Below, in pieces: positions 20,949 through 40,053 of a stretch of DNA of 40,053 nucleotides. This DNA is from a virus: positions 1 through 40,053 of IMG/VR virus record IMGVR_UViG_3300037827_000472. One strand, 5' to 3'. Both the position numbers and the translations under genes were made by a program. The notes under the pieces are model-generated. The model was not told where the DNA came from. It saw only the letters and a program-made list of their open reading frames with translations, and searched no databases. The first letter of the stretch is position 1. Every line of letters starts with the position of its first letter.

Positions 20949-21269
20949 TTAAATGTTTGGTCTTTCATGGTTTTTTTGTTTTCTGAGAGGATATTTATTT
21001 AAAATATCTATAACATCGCTAAGTATTACCAGGGGATTTATGAATTCATTTTCATCATAAATCTTGGCAATCTGCGTTGTATGCCATTCGATTTTTTCGG
21101 CCGGGTCCATTTTTTGCTTTGTTCTGAGAGGATATTTATTTAAAATATCTATAACATCGCTAAGTACTACCAGGGGATTTATGAATTCATTTTCATCATA
21201 AATCTTGGCAATCCGCGTTGTATGCCATTCGATTTTTTCGGCCGGGTCCATTTCATCGTAATTTTTCAT
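20949..21269 (-). CDS. Protein with two near-identical 47-residue repeats
   Basis: 106 residues from the ATG at 21269 (AGGT Shine-Dalgarno, 4 bases after the upstream stop; a GTG at 21302 is less likely). After MKNYDE comes the unit starting MDPAEKIEWHTTRIAKIYDE and ending LNKYPLR, present twice with a TKQK linker. Only R/Q and V/I differ between copies in the core. Each unit is predicted helical. Function unknown; the doubling could create an internal dimer. Part of the leftward early operon. Confidence 0.65.
   Translation of the reverse strand: MKNYDEMDPAEKIEWHTTRIAKIYDENEFINPLVVLSDVIDILNKYPLRTKQKMDPAEKIEWHTTQIAKIYDENEFINPLVILSDVIDILNKYPLRKQKNHERPNI
20983..21253. repeat. 141-bp-period tandem duplication (two copies)
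   Basis: Copies 20983-21112 and 21124-21253 (130 bp each, start-to-start 141 bp) differ at only two positions (T/C in GTAYTACC and in CAATYYGCG context). The period is 47 codons, so the frame is preserved. The high identity indicates a recent duplication. Confidence 0.9.
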
Positions 21270-21273
21270 TTTT

Positions 21274-21489
21274 TTACCTTGGAATTCCTCTGAGATATTC
21301 ACTATAATCTATTCCATCCTTGAAATCCTCGAACAGAGTTTCAAGATCTTTTTCTTGCTGCTTGGTGAGATTATGGATGCTAGAAAACTCCCCATCGTCA
21401 TTAAGGAACAATTCGCGCTCTTCCCTATAACAAGGATCTTTCTCGATGTAGTTCTTATAGAACCATTCGAGATCGTCAAAGTATGACAT
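21274..21489 (-). CDS. Small acidic protein
   Basis: 71 residues with a strong GGAGG Shine-Dalgarno. Acidic and aromatic N-terminus (MSYFDDLEWFYKNYIEKDPC) followed by a helical charged region. Overlaps the end of the upstream gene by 14 bases in another frame. Part of the leftward early operon; acidic early proteins sometimes mimic DNA or inhibit host factors, but there is no specific evidence. Not recognised. Confidence 0.6.
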   Translation of the reverse strand: MSYFDDLEWFYKNYIEKDPCYREERELFLNDDGEFSSIHNLTKQQEKDLETLFEDFKDGIDYSEYLRGIPR

Positions 21490-23152: not shown

Positions 23153-23179
23153 AGACACAGCTAAAAGAAGGATTTGTCT

Positions 23180-24103
23180 ATGAAAATATTCACACAGCTT
23201 CCAGAAGAACTTTTCGATCATATCCTTTGGAAAGAAACCAAGAAAAAAAAAGATTGGCGTTGGGCACTCATTGCAATCCTCCGACGCGCTGCCTTGGTAA
23301 ATCAATCGGATTTAATCAAAGGTCAAGCAACCATATCTATTCGTCAAGTATCTGACGATGCAGAAATAACAAAAAAACAAGCGGAAAAAGCTATTCGTTT
23401 TTGGTTGGGTATAACAGCTCAAAACAAAAAGCGCGTGGATGGAGCGTGTGTTCTTCGTGAAGTTTTTGGGGGACAGAAAAGGGGACAGAAAAGGGGACAA
23501 GAAAAAGCAGTCTACAATATATTGTTGAAAGGATATTGCGAAAATGAGGGGACAGAAAAGGGGACAGAAAAGGGGATGGGCGAGGGGACACAGAGGGGAC
23601 ACAAAGGGGACAGCCCCCCGAGAGAAAATCAGACAGAAGCTAAGAAGCTAGAGGAATCCTTACAGGATTCTTTTATTAACGCCCCGGGGGCGGTGGATTC
23701 CGGCGCGCCAACGCGCCGTTTCTTTGCGTTAGATGAAAAGACAATGACCTTTACTGGAATGAGCAAGAAAGATATCGAAGGCTGGCGAGAGCACTATCGC
23801 TACTTGAATCCCTTGGACTATCTCGATGACATGGCAACATGGCTTCTCAAAAACAAACCACCGGAATATAGAGCAAACATTCCACGCAAGTTCTTCACAA
23901 ATTGGCTCTCAAAACATAATGAAACAAATCAAAAAAACCTAGACAAAGGCAAATCAAATGACGATCGACATTCTCTGGCACAAGGGCAAGGAAATAAACC
24001 TCAAGGTAAATTTATCAACGGTAACATGGACGAAACACCCCTCGTTGCCGGTGCAGGTTTTTACGACAAACTCTATCCATTGCCCAAGATGCAAAAAAAA
24101 TGA
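23180..24103 (+). CDS. Lambda O-like replication initiator
   Basis: 307 residues from the ATG at 23180 (AAGGA Shine-Dalgarno). Residues 1-85 look like a winged-helix DNA-binding domain ('ATISIRQVSDDAEITKKQAE'). A charged linker (about 98-150, GQKRGQKRGQ and GTEKGTEKG) is encoded by 12-bp iterons. The C-terminal part has 'KKDIEGWREHYRYLNPLDYL' and is probably the helicase-loader contact region. Gene-internal iterons, the regulator upstream and the DnaC-like gene downstream reproduce the lambda O/P layout, in which the initiator binds the origin within its own gene. The end overlaps the loader by 146 bases. Confidence 0.75.
   Translation: MKIFTQLPEELFDHILWKETKKKKDWRWALIAILRRAALVNQSDLIKGQATISIRQVSDDAEITKKQAEKAIRFWLGITAQNKKRVDGACVLREVFGGQKRGQKRGQEKAVYNILLKGYCENEGTEKGTEKGMGEGTQRGHKGDSPPRENQTEAKKLEESLQDSFINAPGAVDSGAPTRRFFALDEKTMTFTGMSKKDIEGWREHYRYLNPLDYLDDMATWLLKNKPPEYRANIPRKFFTNWLSKHNETNQKNLDKGKSNDDRHSLAQGQGNKPQGKFINGNMDETPLVAGAGFYDKLYPLPKMQKK
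23469..23613. repeat. Iterons GGGGACAGAAAA: probable replication origin
   Basis: Copies start at 23469, 23481, 23493 (array 1) and 23548, 23560, 23572 (degenerate), 23584, 23595, 23606 (array 2). Most are spaced 12 bp, the last ones 11 bp, with an AT-rich 42-bp gap (ACAATATATTGTTG) between the arrays. Four copies are identical over 12 bp. Because the arrays fall in different codon phases, the conserved unit is the DNA and not the peptide, as expected for initiator-binding sites. Confidence 0.8.
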
Positions 24104-24818
24104 ATTCGGTTTGCTGCATGAGACGCAGCAGCCGCATCGCATCACCTGTTACTGCGTTGTTGATAATTGCTTGAGAGAGGACGCCAAAGCCTCAGCGGAA
24201 ATAAAACGAACTTCAAAAAAACAAGAAAAACAAACAGGTTCTGAAAAATTCGGAATGGGAAGAGCTTTTCGCAATTCACACCTTGCGCAATGGATTGCTT
24301 CAGAAGCTGATCATCGGCGCGTTTTGGACTGGATTACAAATGACCGACTTTTCATCACAGTTCTAGGCCATCCTGGAACCGGTAAAAGCTATCTTTCTGC
24401 TGCAATATTGAACTTTCTTTACGAAGCTGGGCGAGAAGTTGCTTATGTAACCCATCGAAAGTTTATCGAAGAAATCCATTTTGCCATGCAGGACGGCAAA
24501 ACACAGCATTCCGTGATGCCTCGCTATTCGGAAAAAGAGTTTCTTATCATTGATGATCTGGGTTCTGCAACTTGCACGGAATGGCAGCAAGAAATGCTTC
24601 TAGAATTAATTGATCGAAGATATGCTAACAAGGCTAAAACGGTCATAACCTCTAATTTCAACAAACAGGAGCTTTATAAAAAATTAGGAGATAGAACAGC
24701 TTCGAGATTATTAGACAAACATAATATTCTTATCGAAATCTGGACTAAAGACCGCAGACTTGATCAGGAATTCGATGTAGGTGACTTTTGGAAAACGCGA
24801 GAAATGGGGAGGGAGTAA
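23958..24818 (+). CDS. DnaC/IstB-like AAA+ helicase loader
   Basis: 286 residues; AAAGG Shine-Dalgarno before ATG 23958. A zinc-binding N-terminal segment (C42-x2-C45 and C66-x4-C71) precedes an AAA+ domain with Walker A GHPGTGKS (137-144), Walker B FLIIDD (195-200), sensor-like 'AKTVITSNFNKQEL' and an arginine-finger-like 'GDRTASRLLDKHN'. Such proteins load the replicative helicase at the origin using ATP. It follows the initiator and starts well inside it, so 49 codons are read in two frames. A start at a later GTG or TTG would shorten the N-terminus before the zinc motif. Confidence 0.9.
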   Translation: MTIDILWHKGKEINLKVNLSTVTWTKHPSLPVQVFTTNSIHCPRCKKNEFGLLHETQQPHRITCYCVVDNCLREDAKASAEIKRTSKKQEKQTGSEKFGMGRAFRNSHLAQWIASEADHRRVLDWITNDRLFITVLGHPGTGKSYLSAAILNFLYEAGREVAYVTHRKFIEEIHFAMQDGKTQHSVMPRYSEKEFLIIDDLGSATCTEWQQEMLLELIDRRYANKAKTVITSNFNKQELYKKLGDRTASRLLDKHNILIEIWTKDRRLDQEFDVGDFWKTREMGRE

Positions 24819-27648: not shown

Positions 27649-27846
27649 ATGACAAACTTCCCATGCCATTGCGGTAAACCATCGGTCGGTAATCTCGAAG
27701 ATGACGAATCTTTCATCCCTCTTTGCCTAGAATGTTACGATGTATATTTAACAAAAGGTCGGCTTATCCCAGAAGAAGGGCAGCTAATCTCCCAATATTC
27801 CAAAACATACATGCCAACTATTCTACATACCCCCCCTGAAATATGA
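27649..27846 (+). CDS. Small zinc-ribbon protein
   Basis: 65 residues, GGAG Shine-Dalgarno. 'FPCHCGKPSVGNL' and 'PLCLECYDVYLTKGR' form a zinc-ribbon with CxC and CxxC knuckles. It overlaps the methyltransferase start by ATGA. Similar in style to products at 26189 and 37956. Function unknown. Confidence 0.6.
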   Translation: MTNFPCHCGKPSVGNLEDDESFIPLCLECYDVYLTKGRLIPEEGQLISQYSKTYMPTILHTPPEI

Positions 27847-29075
27847 CTCTTAAACATAGACTTGAACTTATGTGGCCAGATAAAGAGAAAGTAGTTTCGC
27901 CTGAGCTAAGAGTTCTACTTGAAAAAGAGGTGTTCCAGTCAAGCCAGAAGGCAAAGAAAGGCACCAAAGATAATCTCCTTATCTACGGTGATAATCTTCT
28001 TGGGTTAAAAGCTCTTGAGCGCGATTACACTGGAAAAATCAAATGTATTTATATTGATCCTCCCTATAACACCAAAAGTTGCTTTACCCATTATGACGAT
28101 AGCATGGAGCATTCTCTATGGCTCAATATGATGAAAGATCGCCTGCTAATTATGCATCGTCTTTTGAGTGAAGATGGCTCGATCTGGATCAGTATTGATG
28201 ACAGCGAATGTCATTATTTGAAGATTATGTGTGATGAGATATTTGGAAGGAAGAATTTTATAAGTAATATTGTTTGGCAACACAGTGTACAAGGTAAAGG
28301 TTATAAAGGGATTTTTTCGGTTCATCATAATTTTATATTAGCCTATAGAAAGTCCTGTCTTTTTCAATTGAATTCTTCACCAAGAAATGAATCACATAAC
28401 AAAGCTTATTCTAATCCAGATAATGATCCACGTGGCCCATGGCGAACTGGCGATGTTCGTAATTCTCTTTACCGTAAGAATTTAATTTATGATTTGTACA
28501 CACCATCAGGAAACATCATCCCACCTCCTCCAAATGGATGGAGATGGTCCAAAGAAACAATGAAAAAGAAAATTGAAGAGAAAGAGATCGTATTTCGAAA
28601 TAATGAACGAAACATCATTAGAAAAATTTATTTAAAAGATCAAGAAGGTCGCGTACCAGAAACAATTTGGTTTGGAGATGAAGTAGGCACTTCTCGTGAA
28701 GCAGACAGTGAATCAAAAATTTTGTTCGGTAAAGAAAATAAATTCTCTACCCCAAAACCAGAACGCTTAATACAACGTATCCTACATTTAGGTACTAATC
28801 CCGGAGATCTCATCCTCGACTCTTTCGCAGGTTCCGGTACAACTGGCGCAGTTGCGCACAAAATGGGGCGCCGTTGGATCATGATAGAGCTAAATCCCCA
28901 TTGTCATTCTCTTATCATTCCTCGTCTCCAAAAAGTTATCGATGGTAGTGACCAAGGAGGAATATCTGAAGCTGTAGATTGGCAAGGAGGCGGGAGTTTC
29001 CGGTTCTGTGAGTTAGCGCCCTCATTACTTGAGCGCAATCACATAGGGCGATGGGTTATAAACAAATGGAATTGA
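27843..29075 (+). CDS. DNA methyltransferase, type III Mod-like
   Basis: 410 residues. Catalytic DPPYN (72-76, 'CIYIDPPYNTKSCF') precedes the SAM-binding FAGSGTTG near residue 330, the beta-class order of N6-adenine/N4-cytosine methyltransferases. Surrounding blocks ('LLIYGDNLLGLKALE', 'LSEDGSIWISIDDSE', 'KPERLIQRIL', 'LDSFAGSGTTGAVAHKM') match Mod subunits of type III systems. There is no restriction subunit, so it is probably a solitary modification enzyme, perhaps evading host restriction. The middle (150-290) should hold the target-recognition part. Its 3' end carries a copy of a 23-bp sequence from the next gene. Confidence 0.9.
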   Translation: MTLKHRLELMWPDKEKVVSPELRVLLEKEVFQSSQKAKKGTKDNLLIYGDNLLGLKALERDYTGKIKCIYIDPPYNTKSCFTHYDDSMEHSLWLNMMKDRLLIMHRLLSEDGSIWISIDDSECHYLKIMCDEIFGRKNFISNIVWQHSVQGKGYKGIFSVHHNFILAYRKSCLFQLNSSPRNESHNKAYSNPDNDPRGPWRTGDVRNSLYRKNLIYDLYTPSGNIIPPPPNGWRWSKETMKKKIEEKEIVFRNNERNIIRKIYLKDQEGRVPETIWFGDEVGTSREADSESKILFGKENKFSTPKPERLIQRILHLGTNPGDLILDSFAGSGTTGAVAHKMGRRWIMIELNPHCHSLIIPRLQKVIDGSDQGGISEAVDWQGGGSFRFCELAPSLLERNHIGRWVINKWN

Positions 29076-30601
29076 ACTCAATGAAGAATTAAAAACCTTG
29101 AAAACCAACGTTCAGCAAAGCGGCGATCACTCTATTCCGAGAATGAGCTGGGAAATATTAAACGGTGATTGTTTGCCTATAATGAAAACTTTTCCTGATA
29201 ATCATTTTTCAGCGATTGTAACTGATAGCCCCTATGGGATTTCGTTCATGTCTAAGCACTGGGATAAACAAATACCTGGGCCTGAATATTGGTCTGAAAT
29301 GTTACGAATAATCAAACCTGGCGGCCATTTAATAGCAGCTGGATTGCCTCGCATGTTACATCGCCTTACATGCGTTATAGAGGATTCTGGATGGCAAATA
29401 CGTGATCTTTTAATGCATTTATTCGGCTCAGGATTTCCCAAGTCTTACAATCACTTTGGCCTAGAAGGTTATGGCACAGCTTTGAAACCCGCACATGAAG
29501 ATTGGATTCTAGCTCAAAAGCCTTTGTCTCTTAATACGGAACAGGATATAATAGTTGGTAACCTACATAAATTATGGTGCCAACTATGCCTAATGTTGCC
29601 TGTGAATGCTGCGGAAACAATTTTCACGTCAAACAATCTAGATATGAACGCGGCGTTAGATTTTGCTCAATGGGATGCAGAAAAAAAATCCAATACACAG
29701 GCAGATTTGTACGCTCTGATGGATATGTCGCGATTAGAAAAGGTGCTAATTTCGTGCTTGAGCATCGTGTTATTATGGAAAAGCACATTGGAAGAACATT
29801 GGAAAAATGGGAGCATGTCCACCACCTCAACGAAAATAAATCCGACAATAGACTTGAAAATCTTGAAATCTTGTCTATCTCAGCTCACTCCGCGCATCAT
29901 CATCCTGGAAGAAATAAAGCAACATGGATCATGGTTGAATGCCTTAACTGCAGCACGTTATTTGAACGCCGTTGTCATGAATTTAAACGCCACCCGCGAA
30001 CTTTCTGTTCTAGAAAATGCTATAAACAAGGATGGCTTAAATCTTTATCCTAACTGGGAAGGATGGATACTCGCTATGAAACCATGCGAAGGAACCTACG
30101 CACAAAATGCCGAGAAATGGGGAGTGGCTGGTATCAATATTGCGGAAACTCGTATCGAAGGGAAAAGATGGCCCGCAAATTTGCTTTTGGATAGCGAAGC
30201 CGCAGCAATGCTAGATCAAATGAGTGGGATCGAAGCCTCCCGCTTCTTTAAAGTTATGGATGGAAACAGCGAGCAGTTAAGATTCAAATACCAAGCTAAA
30301 GCTTCTTCGGCTGAACGTAATGAAGGGCTTGAAGATATGCCTAAAAAAGAATCTCGACCTTTAGGAATATCAAATTGGGAAGGACAAACAAACGGATCAG
30401 GGCAAACTATGGGAAAAAGCGCTCCACAATCAAATTTCCATCCAACTGTAAAGCCGATTAAGCTCATGGAATACCTCATTAAACTAATAAAACCTCCTGG
30501 AAATCCTATTATTCTTGACCCCTTCATGGGATCGGGGACGAGTTTGTTGGCTTGCAAAAACTTAGGTGTCAGAGCAATTGGAATTGAACTCAATGAAGAA
30601 T
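29067..30601. repeat. 23-bp direct repeats bounding the second methyltransferase
   Basis: TGGAATTGAACTCAATGAAG plus AAT occurs at 29067-29089 (end of the first methyltransferase) and at 30579-30601 (motif GIELNEE of the second); with flanks, 26 of 27 bases match. Start-to-start distance is 1512 bp (504 codons), nearly the size of the second methyltransferase gene. Recombination between the copies would remove that gene. Confidence 0.85.
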
Positions 30602-30672
30602 ATTGTGCTATTGCGCGAAAACGAATCGAATCCTGCAAAATTCCTCTTGAGCAATACGAGATGGATATGTAA
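29098..30672 (+). CDS. DNA methyltransferase, interrupted in-frame by HNH cassette
   Basis: 524 residues from TTG 29098, or 509 from ATG 29143 (MSWEILNGDCLPIMKTF, the more usual start for the family). DSPYG (43-47) then DPFMGSGTSLLA near residue 467 identify a beta-class adenine/cytosine methyltransferase; the end 'GIELNEEYCAIARKRIE' is typical. Between 'GTALKPAHEDWILAQKP' and 'EGWILAMKPCEGTYAQNAEK' lie about 180 residues (29524-30057) whose DNA also encodes an HNH endonuclease in another frame. Without them the motif reads continuously. Whether the long form is active is unknown. Confidence 0.8.
   Translation: MKTNVQQSGDHSIPRMSWEILNGDCLPIMKTFPDNHFSAIVTDSPYGISFMSKHWDKQIPGPEYWSEMLRIIKPGGHLIAAGLPRMLHRLTCVIEDSGWQIRDLLMHLFGSGFPKSYNHFGLEGYGTALKPAHEDWILAQKPLSLNTEQDIIVGNLHKLWCQLCLMLPVNAAETIFTSNNLDMNAALDFAQWDAEKKSNTQADLYALMDMSRLEKVLISCLSIVLLWKSTLEEHWKNGSMSTTSTKINPTIDLKILKSCLSQLTPRIIILEEIKQHGSWLNALTAARYLNAVVMNLNATRELSVLENAINKDGLNLYPNWEGWILAMKPCEGTYAQNAEKWGVAGINIAETRIEGKRWPANLLLDSEAAAMLDQMSGIEASRFFKVMDGNSEQLRFKYQAKASSAERNEGLEDMPKKESRPLGISNWEGQTNGSGQTMGKSAPQSNFHPTVKPIKLMEYLIKLIKPPGNPIILDPFMGSGTSLLACKNLGVRAIGIELNEEYCAIARKRIESCKIPLEQYEMDM
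29574..30053 (+). CDS. HNH endonuclease nested in the methyltransferase gene
   Basis: 159 residues in a different frame of the methyltransferase gene. Convincing HNH_3-type core: 'DGYVAIRKGANFVLEHRVIM', 'EHVHHLNENKSDNRLENLEI' with the H-H...N/D residues, and 'SAHHH'. Zinc knuckles flank it (CECCGN...CSMGC, and CLNC...FCSRKC). Homing endonucleases of this type cut alleles lacking them and spread. No clear Shine-Dalgarno is present, so expression may be low or coupled. The stop lies 4 bases before the second copy of the duplicated flanking sequence. The coding quality argues against a chance frame. Confidence 0.85.
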   Translation: MVPTMPNVACECCGNNFHVKQSRYERGVRFCSMGCRKKIQYTGRFVRSDGYVAIRKGANFVLEHRVIMEKHIGRTLEKWEHVHHLNENKSDNRLENLEILSISAHSAHHHPGRNKATWIMVECLNCSTLFERRCHEFKRHPRTFCSRKCYKQGWLKSLS

Positions 30673-39799: not shown

Positions 39800-40053
39800 A
39801 TGTCGATTACGACTACTGGGAACTTGGGACCGCTTATTTTGCAAAGCTTGGCTCCTGCCATGCTCTATGTCCCAACTCCAACAATGAATTACATCATCCC
39901 CGCGGATAAAGTCTCAATGCCAGCCAATGGTGGTACGACTTGCCGCTTTATGCGCCCACGCGCATTAGTACCGCCCACCGTACAGTTGGGTAACTCAGGC
40001 ATTGACCCTCCGGCTCAAGTGCCTCAACGCGATATCATAGATGCCCAAATGGC
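39800..40053 (+). CDS. Major capsid protein, 5' part (continues at base 1)
   Basis: This is the first part of the capsid gene. The ATG at 39800 follows an AGGA Shine-Dalgarno, and an in-frame stop lies just upstream at 39788. The protein begins MSITTTGNLGPLILQSLAP and runs through the circular join to the stop at 845, giving 323 residues in all. Length, position after scaffold, and sequence pattern fit coat proteins of the N4 gp56 family, which assemble the icosahedral shell. The recognition is from memory of the family and not from a search. The internal ATG at 24 is not the real start. Confidence 0.85.
   Translation, partial: MSITTTGNLGPLILQSLAPAMLYVPTPTMNYIIPADKVSMPANGGTTCRFMRPRALVPPTVQLGNSGIDPPAQVPQRDIIDAQM
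39927..40053. repeat. 127-bp terminal overlap identical to bases 1-127
   Basis: The final 127 bases match the first 127 bases base for base, and the capsid reading frame continues across the join. This indicates a circular contig (or a circularly permuted or terminally redundant genome) written with its overlap retained. A length of exactly 127 equals a common maximum assembly k-mer, so it is more likely an assembly overlap than a biological terminal repeat. The unique genome length is 39,926 bp. Confidence 0.95.

Follow-up and report, generated by a model that had tools for sequence, protein, structure and literature searches.

The window, a stretch of viral DNA analysed over its whole length of 40,053 bp, contains a putative replication-initiator gene that carries two short arrays of direct repeats within its coding sequence, followed by a gene for a helicase loader (Table 1). 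The product of the downstream gene is an AAA+ ATPase of the DnaC/IstB family. The loader gene adjoins the initiator gene and overlaps its 3′ end in another frame; counted from the first ATG of the DnaC-like ORF, which falls within the initiator gene, the overlap is 146 bp (23958–24103), and the actual start codon may be further downstream. Elsewhere in the window, a 141-bp unit is repeated in tandem (20981–21253, 1.9 copies, 98% matches) inside a minus-strand ORF (20949–21302), and two adjacent genes (27843–29075 and 29098–30672) encode DNA methyltransferases (N6_N4_Mtase; phrog_67 match). The window begins and ends with an exact 127-bp direct terminal repeat (1–127 and 39927–40053), and the record is therefore probably a complete genome, circularly permuted or terminally redundant.

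Table 1 Features of the initiator locus, with codon phases given as offsets modulo 3 from the ATG at 23180.
Feature	Coordinates	Strand	Description
Replication initiator (putative), 307 residues	23180..24103	+	ORF; ATG at 23180, alternative start TTG at 23174
Array 1	23469..23499	+	Three GGGGACA units at 12-bp steps, all in phase 1; residues 97–107, predicted wing loop
Spacer between arrays	23500..23547	+	Encodes the predicted last wing strand, VYNILLKGY (strand 111–114); 43 bp are 70% AT
Array 2	23548..23612	+	Six units, steps 12-12-12-11-11, phases 2,2,2,2,1,0; predicted linker, residues 123–145
DnaC/IstB-like helicase loader	23958..24818	+	PF01695, 2.7e-18; phrog_50, 2.4e-42

At a threshold of 0.1, neither Pfam nor PHROG gives a match for the 307-residue protein; no plasmid-type Rep match came from the family searches, and a PDB sequence search with the protein returned nothing usable. 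Sequence profiles did not place it in the DnaD-like or O-like families (phrog_2514, phrog_678 and Phage_rep_org_N), its homologue L054 matching phrog_678 at only 0.031. Profile comparison with the proteins L030, L065, L022, L092 and L100 gave a probability of 86%, which is partly owed to the repeats, whereas the pair L079/L110 gave a negative result. The fold was modelled with AF2: a three-sequence alignment gave a pLDDT of 52 and no usable model, and an alignment of 11 array-bearing initiators, distant in sequence, gave a winged helix of moderate quality (mean pLDDT 66). In this model, the protein is predicted to consist of an N-terminal winged helix (residues ~9–114; helices 9–13, 15–23, 28–39, 54–61 and 65–76; strands 49–51, 92–94 and 111–114), a linker and a separate C-terminal part. 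Its best structural match in BFVD carries the annotation lambda GpO N-terminal (E = 3.7e-3, probability 1.0), and matches in the PDB are weak, being merely consistent with a winged helix. The modelled winged helix, followed by the DnaC-like loader gene, agrees with the initiator identity assigned in the earlier note, and we place the protein among winged-helix initiators with moderate confidence.

The heptamer GGGGACA occurs eight times in the initiator gene, starting at 23469, 23481 and 23493 in array 1 and at 23548, 23560, 23584, 23595 and 23606 in array 2. Together with GGGGATG at 23572, this makes nine units, eight of them with the exact heptamer, whose phases run 1,1,1 through the first array and 2,2,2,2,1,0 through the second. 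The positions of the two arrays, their different phases with all three phases in use and the 11-bp spacing of the final two copies are thus as the earlier note had described them. Its count of nine for the 12-mer GGGGACAGAAAA and variants stands for the units; the full 12-mer has only four exact copies, so the words ‘and variants’ are needed. Outside the clusters, the window contains a single GGGGACA (7250) and no TGTCCCC. Matches to GGGGACAGAAAA with up to three mismatches number 39 in the window, against 35.4 by chance, and are not enriched; the signal is the clustering of exact heptamers, and not loose 12-mer matches. The peptides encoded under the repeats are GGQKRGQKRGQ (array 1) and GTEKGTEKG...GTQRGHKGD (array 2). 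In the AF2 model, the residues of array 1 fall in the loop joining wing strands 92–94 and 111–114, and those of array 2 start shortly past the last wing strand; both arrays are thus predicted to sit where the gene encodes flexible protein, a wing loop and a linker.

The protein was recoded synonymously 20,000 times using the phage’s own codon usage. GGGGACA then occurred 0.35 times per recoding on average and at most 4 times, against the 8 observed, so the peptide is not the source of the repeats. Permuting the gene’s own synonymous codons (5,000 times) gave a mean of 0.42 and a maximum of 3. The repeats are constrained as DNA.

Two homologues lie on other viral contigs (L054/L123 and L124). 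They encode counterparts of the N-terminal 158 residues of the 307-residue protein at ~59% identity, whereas the C-terminal parts differ between the 307-residue protein and both homologues, and the repeat-bearing N-terminal domain therefore forms a module. Relatives of the initiator were absent from cultured phages, plasmids and genome contigs, and a blastn search with the array found no match among cultured phages, although its low-complexity filter may mask such matches. In all three genes, array 2 consists of six units, some with one base changed, at steps of 12-12-12-11-11 and with differing spacers. At the third positions of codons for conserved residues, our gene and L054 agree at 17 of 18 sites within the heptamers and at 52 of 78 outside them (p = 0.019); the two remaining pairs of homologues go in the same direction at non-significant levels (14/16 versus 46/74, p = 0.08; 13/16 versus 67/103, p = 0.26). 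In L124, array 1 lies entirely in phase 1 and keeps GGGG, and array 2 reads GGCGACA, GGTGACA, GGTGATA and GGTGACA in phase 2, GGGGACA in phase 1 and GGTGACA in phase 0. Because GGTGACA in phase 1 would give a TGA stop codon, the word seems to have been altered solely at positions where the protein tolerated this. This stop-avoiding switch, seen in the sequence of a single lineage, is suggestive of a constraint on the DNA word. The synonymous-codon tests, phase switching, conserved spacing and the switch in L124 all favour the DNA-level selection that had been claimed.

Origins within initiator genes are known from other phages. In SPP1, gene 38 contains the direct repeats of oriL to which gp38 binds (PMC6316719), and oriLambda maps inside gene O, its iterons being 19-bp inverted repeats to which O dimers bind (PMC5043065). 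The likeness to a lambda O-type origin proposed from the sequence is apparent in a layout shared with lambda O and SPP1 gene 38: coding repeats constrained as DNA, placed after what is here a modelled winged-helix domain, with the loader gene immediately downstream. SPP1 (initiator gp38, loader gp39 and helicase gp40) has multi-phase repeats in the linker of the initiator gene and the loader gene next to it. It differs in its word, (C/A)GACA at 11-bp steps rather than GGGGACA at 12- and 11-bp steps, and no wing-loop array was noted in it, whereas this phage has array 1 there. In the SPP1 record, the linker that follows the winged helix has GACA at 11-bp intervals (phases 2,1,0,2), and we infer that these are the published oriL repeats. 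Direct similarity between the 307-residue protein and SPP1 gp38 is undetectable, and the two are linked only via proteins of the L092 type, GGGGACA-bearing initiators; the winged helix of L092 is 44% identical to that of gp38. In lambda O, HK022 O and P22 gp18, iterons also lie within the gene, past the DNA-binding domain, and the loader gene (P) follows; lambda differs in having 19-bp inverted repeats, whereas those described here are 7-bp direct repeats in a predicted wing loop and linker. The GGGGACA gene L030 resembles HK022 O (28%), whose linker, like that of SPP1 gp38, also holds repeats in more than one phase.

Of 16 named relatives, most have repeats in the linker that follows the winged helix, each using a word of its own (among them AACATCA, GAACAGC, GGGCACA, TGTCCAG and TACCAGCA); in several, the repeats occupy all three phases. 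GGGGACA is used by none of the 16. The short-word synonymous-codon test is by itself non-significant in a few of them, SPP1 included. Steps of 11 bp, which cycle through the three frames, are common in these relatives, SPP1 gene 38 among them, and reading in all three phases is therefore a common consequence of spacing rather than a peculiarity of this phage. The initiators L065, L079, L092, L099 and L110, from other viral contigs, share the GGGGACA word, in any phase and at the wing and/or linker position, but belong to other protein families (phrog_2514, phrog_270, phrog_15768 and others). Plasmid origins of the RK2, P1 and R6K type likewise have short direct repeats in arrays, and winged-helix initiators that read them. 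Most plasmid iterons are located outside rep and, at about 17–22 bp, are longer.

Three copies of GGGGACA at 10–13-bp steps gave at least 120 matches in viral contigs, compared with 70 in the whole collection for the reversed word, used as a control. Among the matches listed, all spacers differ in 56 of 102 distinct GGGGACA arrays and in 16 of 53 reversed-word arrays (p = 0.004). Array neighbourhoods were assessed by scanning neighbouring ORFs for families. Genes near the listed GGGGACA arrays belong mainly to primase/polymerase, primase-helicase, replication-initiation, DnaD-like and integrase families, whereas the 25 families found most often beside the reversed-word controls include no replication-initiation or DnaD family. 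GGGGACA arrays also occur outside initiators, in intergenic or antisense positions or near integrases (L005, L019, L032, L061, L075, L104, L119 and others). A separate use of the full 12-mer is seen in L211–L214 and L216–L218, regulator-like proteins of termite-gut and other bacteria, in which the linker preceding a C-terminal HTH is a single-phase (KGTE)n encoded by (GGGGACAGAAAA)n. No paper linking GGGGACA to phage origins or iterons was found in the open-access literature. What is new here is the frequent presence of GGGGACA arrays in viral contigs and, in contrast to reversed-word controls, their position next to replication genes; a special status of this word among heptamers is provisional.

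The AT-rich gap between the arrays had been likened to an unwinding element, an interpretation that finds little support here. The gap encodes a predicted wing strand whose peptide, VYNILLKGY, is kept by all three homologues. AT-richness of the gap is not a conserved feature, the fraction being 0.70 in this phage, 0.75 for L054 and 0.60 for L124, and the gap is only among the least stable ~10% of the window, with less stable stretches nearby. Several AT-rich stretches lie near the arrays, none of them conserved or exceptional. The gap may still aid unwinding, though nothing distinguishes it. Cumulative GC skew, which had been suggested as a check, leaves the array site unmarked and is uninformative. 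In L221 (SPP1), L222, L223 and L232, an AT-rich stretch encoding an Asn/Asp-rich peptide (NNNDNNENND) follows the iterons, and in these named initiators it is possibly the unwinding element; a stretch of this kind was not seen after the repeats of this phage.

Both GGGGACA clusters are, very probably, initiator-binding iterons of a phage origin located within the initiator gene. The intragenic layout itself is of a known kind, exemplified by lambda and SPP1, and is well supported here; the likely origin is thereby pinned down to about 150 bp in the genome of an uncultured phage. By analogy with SPP1 and lambda, multiple copies of the 307-residue protein would bind the nine units through their winged helices. 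The bound initiator would destabilize adjacent AT-rich DNA, and the melted site would then be passed to the DnaC-like loader, leading to loading of the replicative helicase. Expression of the initiator gene would both produce the protein and carry transcription across its own putative binding sites. Several points count against an origin: the initiator has no family match by sequence, its model is of moderate quality and built on distant sequences, there are just two homologues, GC skew leaves the site unmarked, no conserved unwinding element was found, and many GGGGACA arrays elsewhere lie outside initiators.

The repeats could instead be bound by a protein other than the initiator, either a host factor or an intragenic repressor of the replication operon, which we consider improbable. 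The presence of GGGGACA arrays near unrelated replication proteins (AAA_25, prim-pol and winged-helix) and integrases would suit such a reader, as would the intergenic or antisense position of some of them. However, SPP1 gp38 and lambda O, which are related initiators, each bind to repeats located in the gene that encodes them (PMC6316719, PMC5043065), and the word varies by family among the named relatives, a pattern to be expected of initiators that each recognize a word of their own.

It is very unlikely that (KGTE)n and (KRGQ)n form a protein linker, selected or made by slippage, to which the DNA repeat is incidental. The identical 12-mer does encode KGTE repeats in Treponema and Bacteroidales, where the proteins are regulator-like, and the phases are the same in the two homologues, so that much of the peptide is conserved too. 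Yet the genomic (KGTE)n repeats made from this 12-mer, found in Treponema, Bacteroidales and a Fibrimonadaceae genome, keep to one phase and 12-bp steps where the frame is traceable, whereas the units described here occupy three phases, encode three different peptides and so depart from a KGTE-type tandem repeat in one reading phase. In L124, moreover, the array 2 peptide has changed from GTEKGTEKG to ATEKVTAKV, yet the spacing and the GGNGACA word are kept. These single-phase comparators, the recoding result (8 observed versus a mean of 0.35) and the peptide change in L124 led us to reject a peptide repeat as the explanation.

It is scarcely credible that the repeats arose by neutral tandem duplication, with no function, where the gene tolerates it: a spacer of GAAAA is often common to the units of an array, as might be expected of recent duplicates, and the encoded protein is predicted to be flexible there, but the steps are identical in three diverged genes with different spacers, all-different spacers are more frequent among the listed GGGGACA arrays than among reversed-word arrays, and duplication leaves the two arrays in different phases unexplained.

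With the clusters read as iterons of an intragenic origin, the initiator gene would carry its own putative binding sites, the word being placed where the protein is flexible and the frame being set by the spacing. As an annotation rule, we suggest taking repeats that disregard codon phase, within a winged helix or directly behind it, as the mark of a phage origin. More speculatively, and on balance doubtfully, uncultured phages and mobile elements might have GGGGACA as an iteron ‘dialect’ in common, paired with unrelated initiators and perhaps served by one common reader. The modules concerned, in an equally tentative extension, would be winged-helix DnaD/O-like proteins, AAA_25 primase-helicases and prim-pols, with arrays in or outside their genes; the common reader, in place of each module’s own protein, may be a host factor or a DNA-binding domain that is exchanged. 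What reads GGGGACA, a word that recurs next to unrelated replication proteins, is a testable question and merits follow-up.
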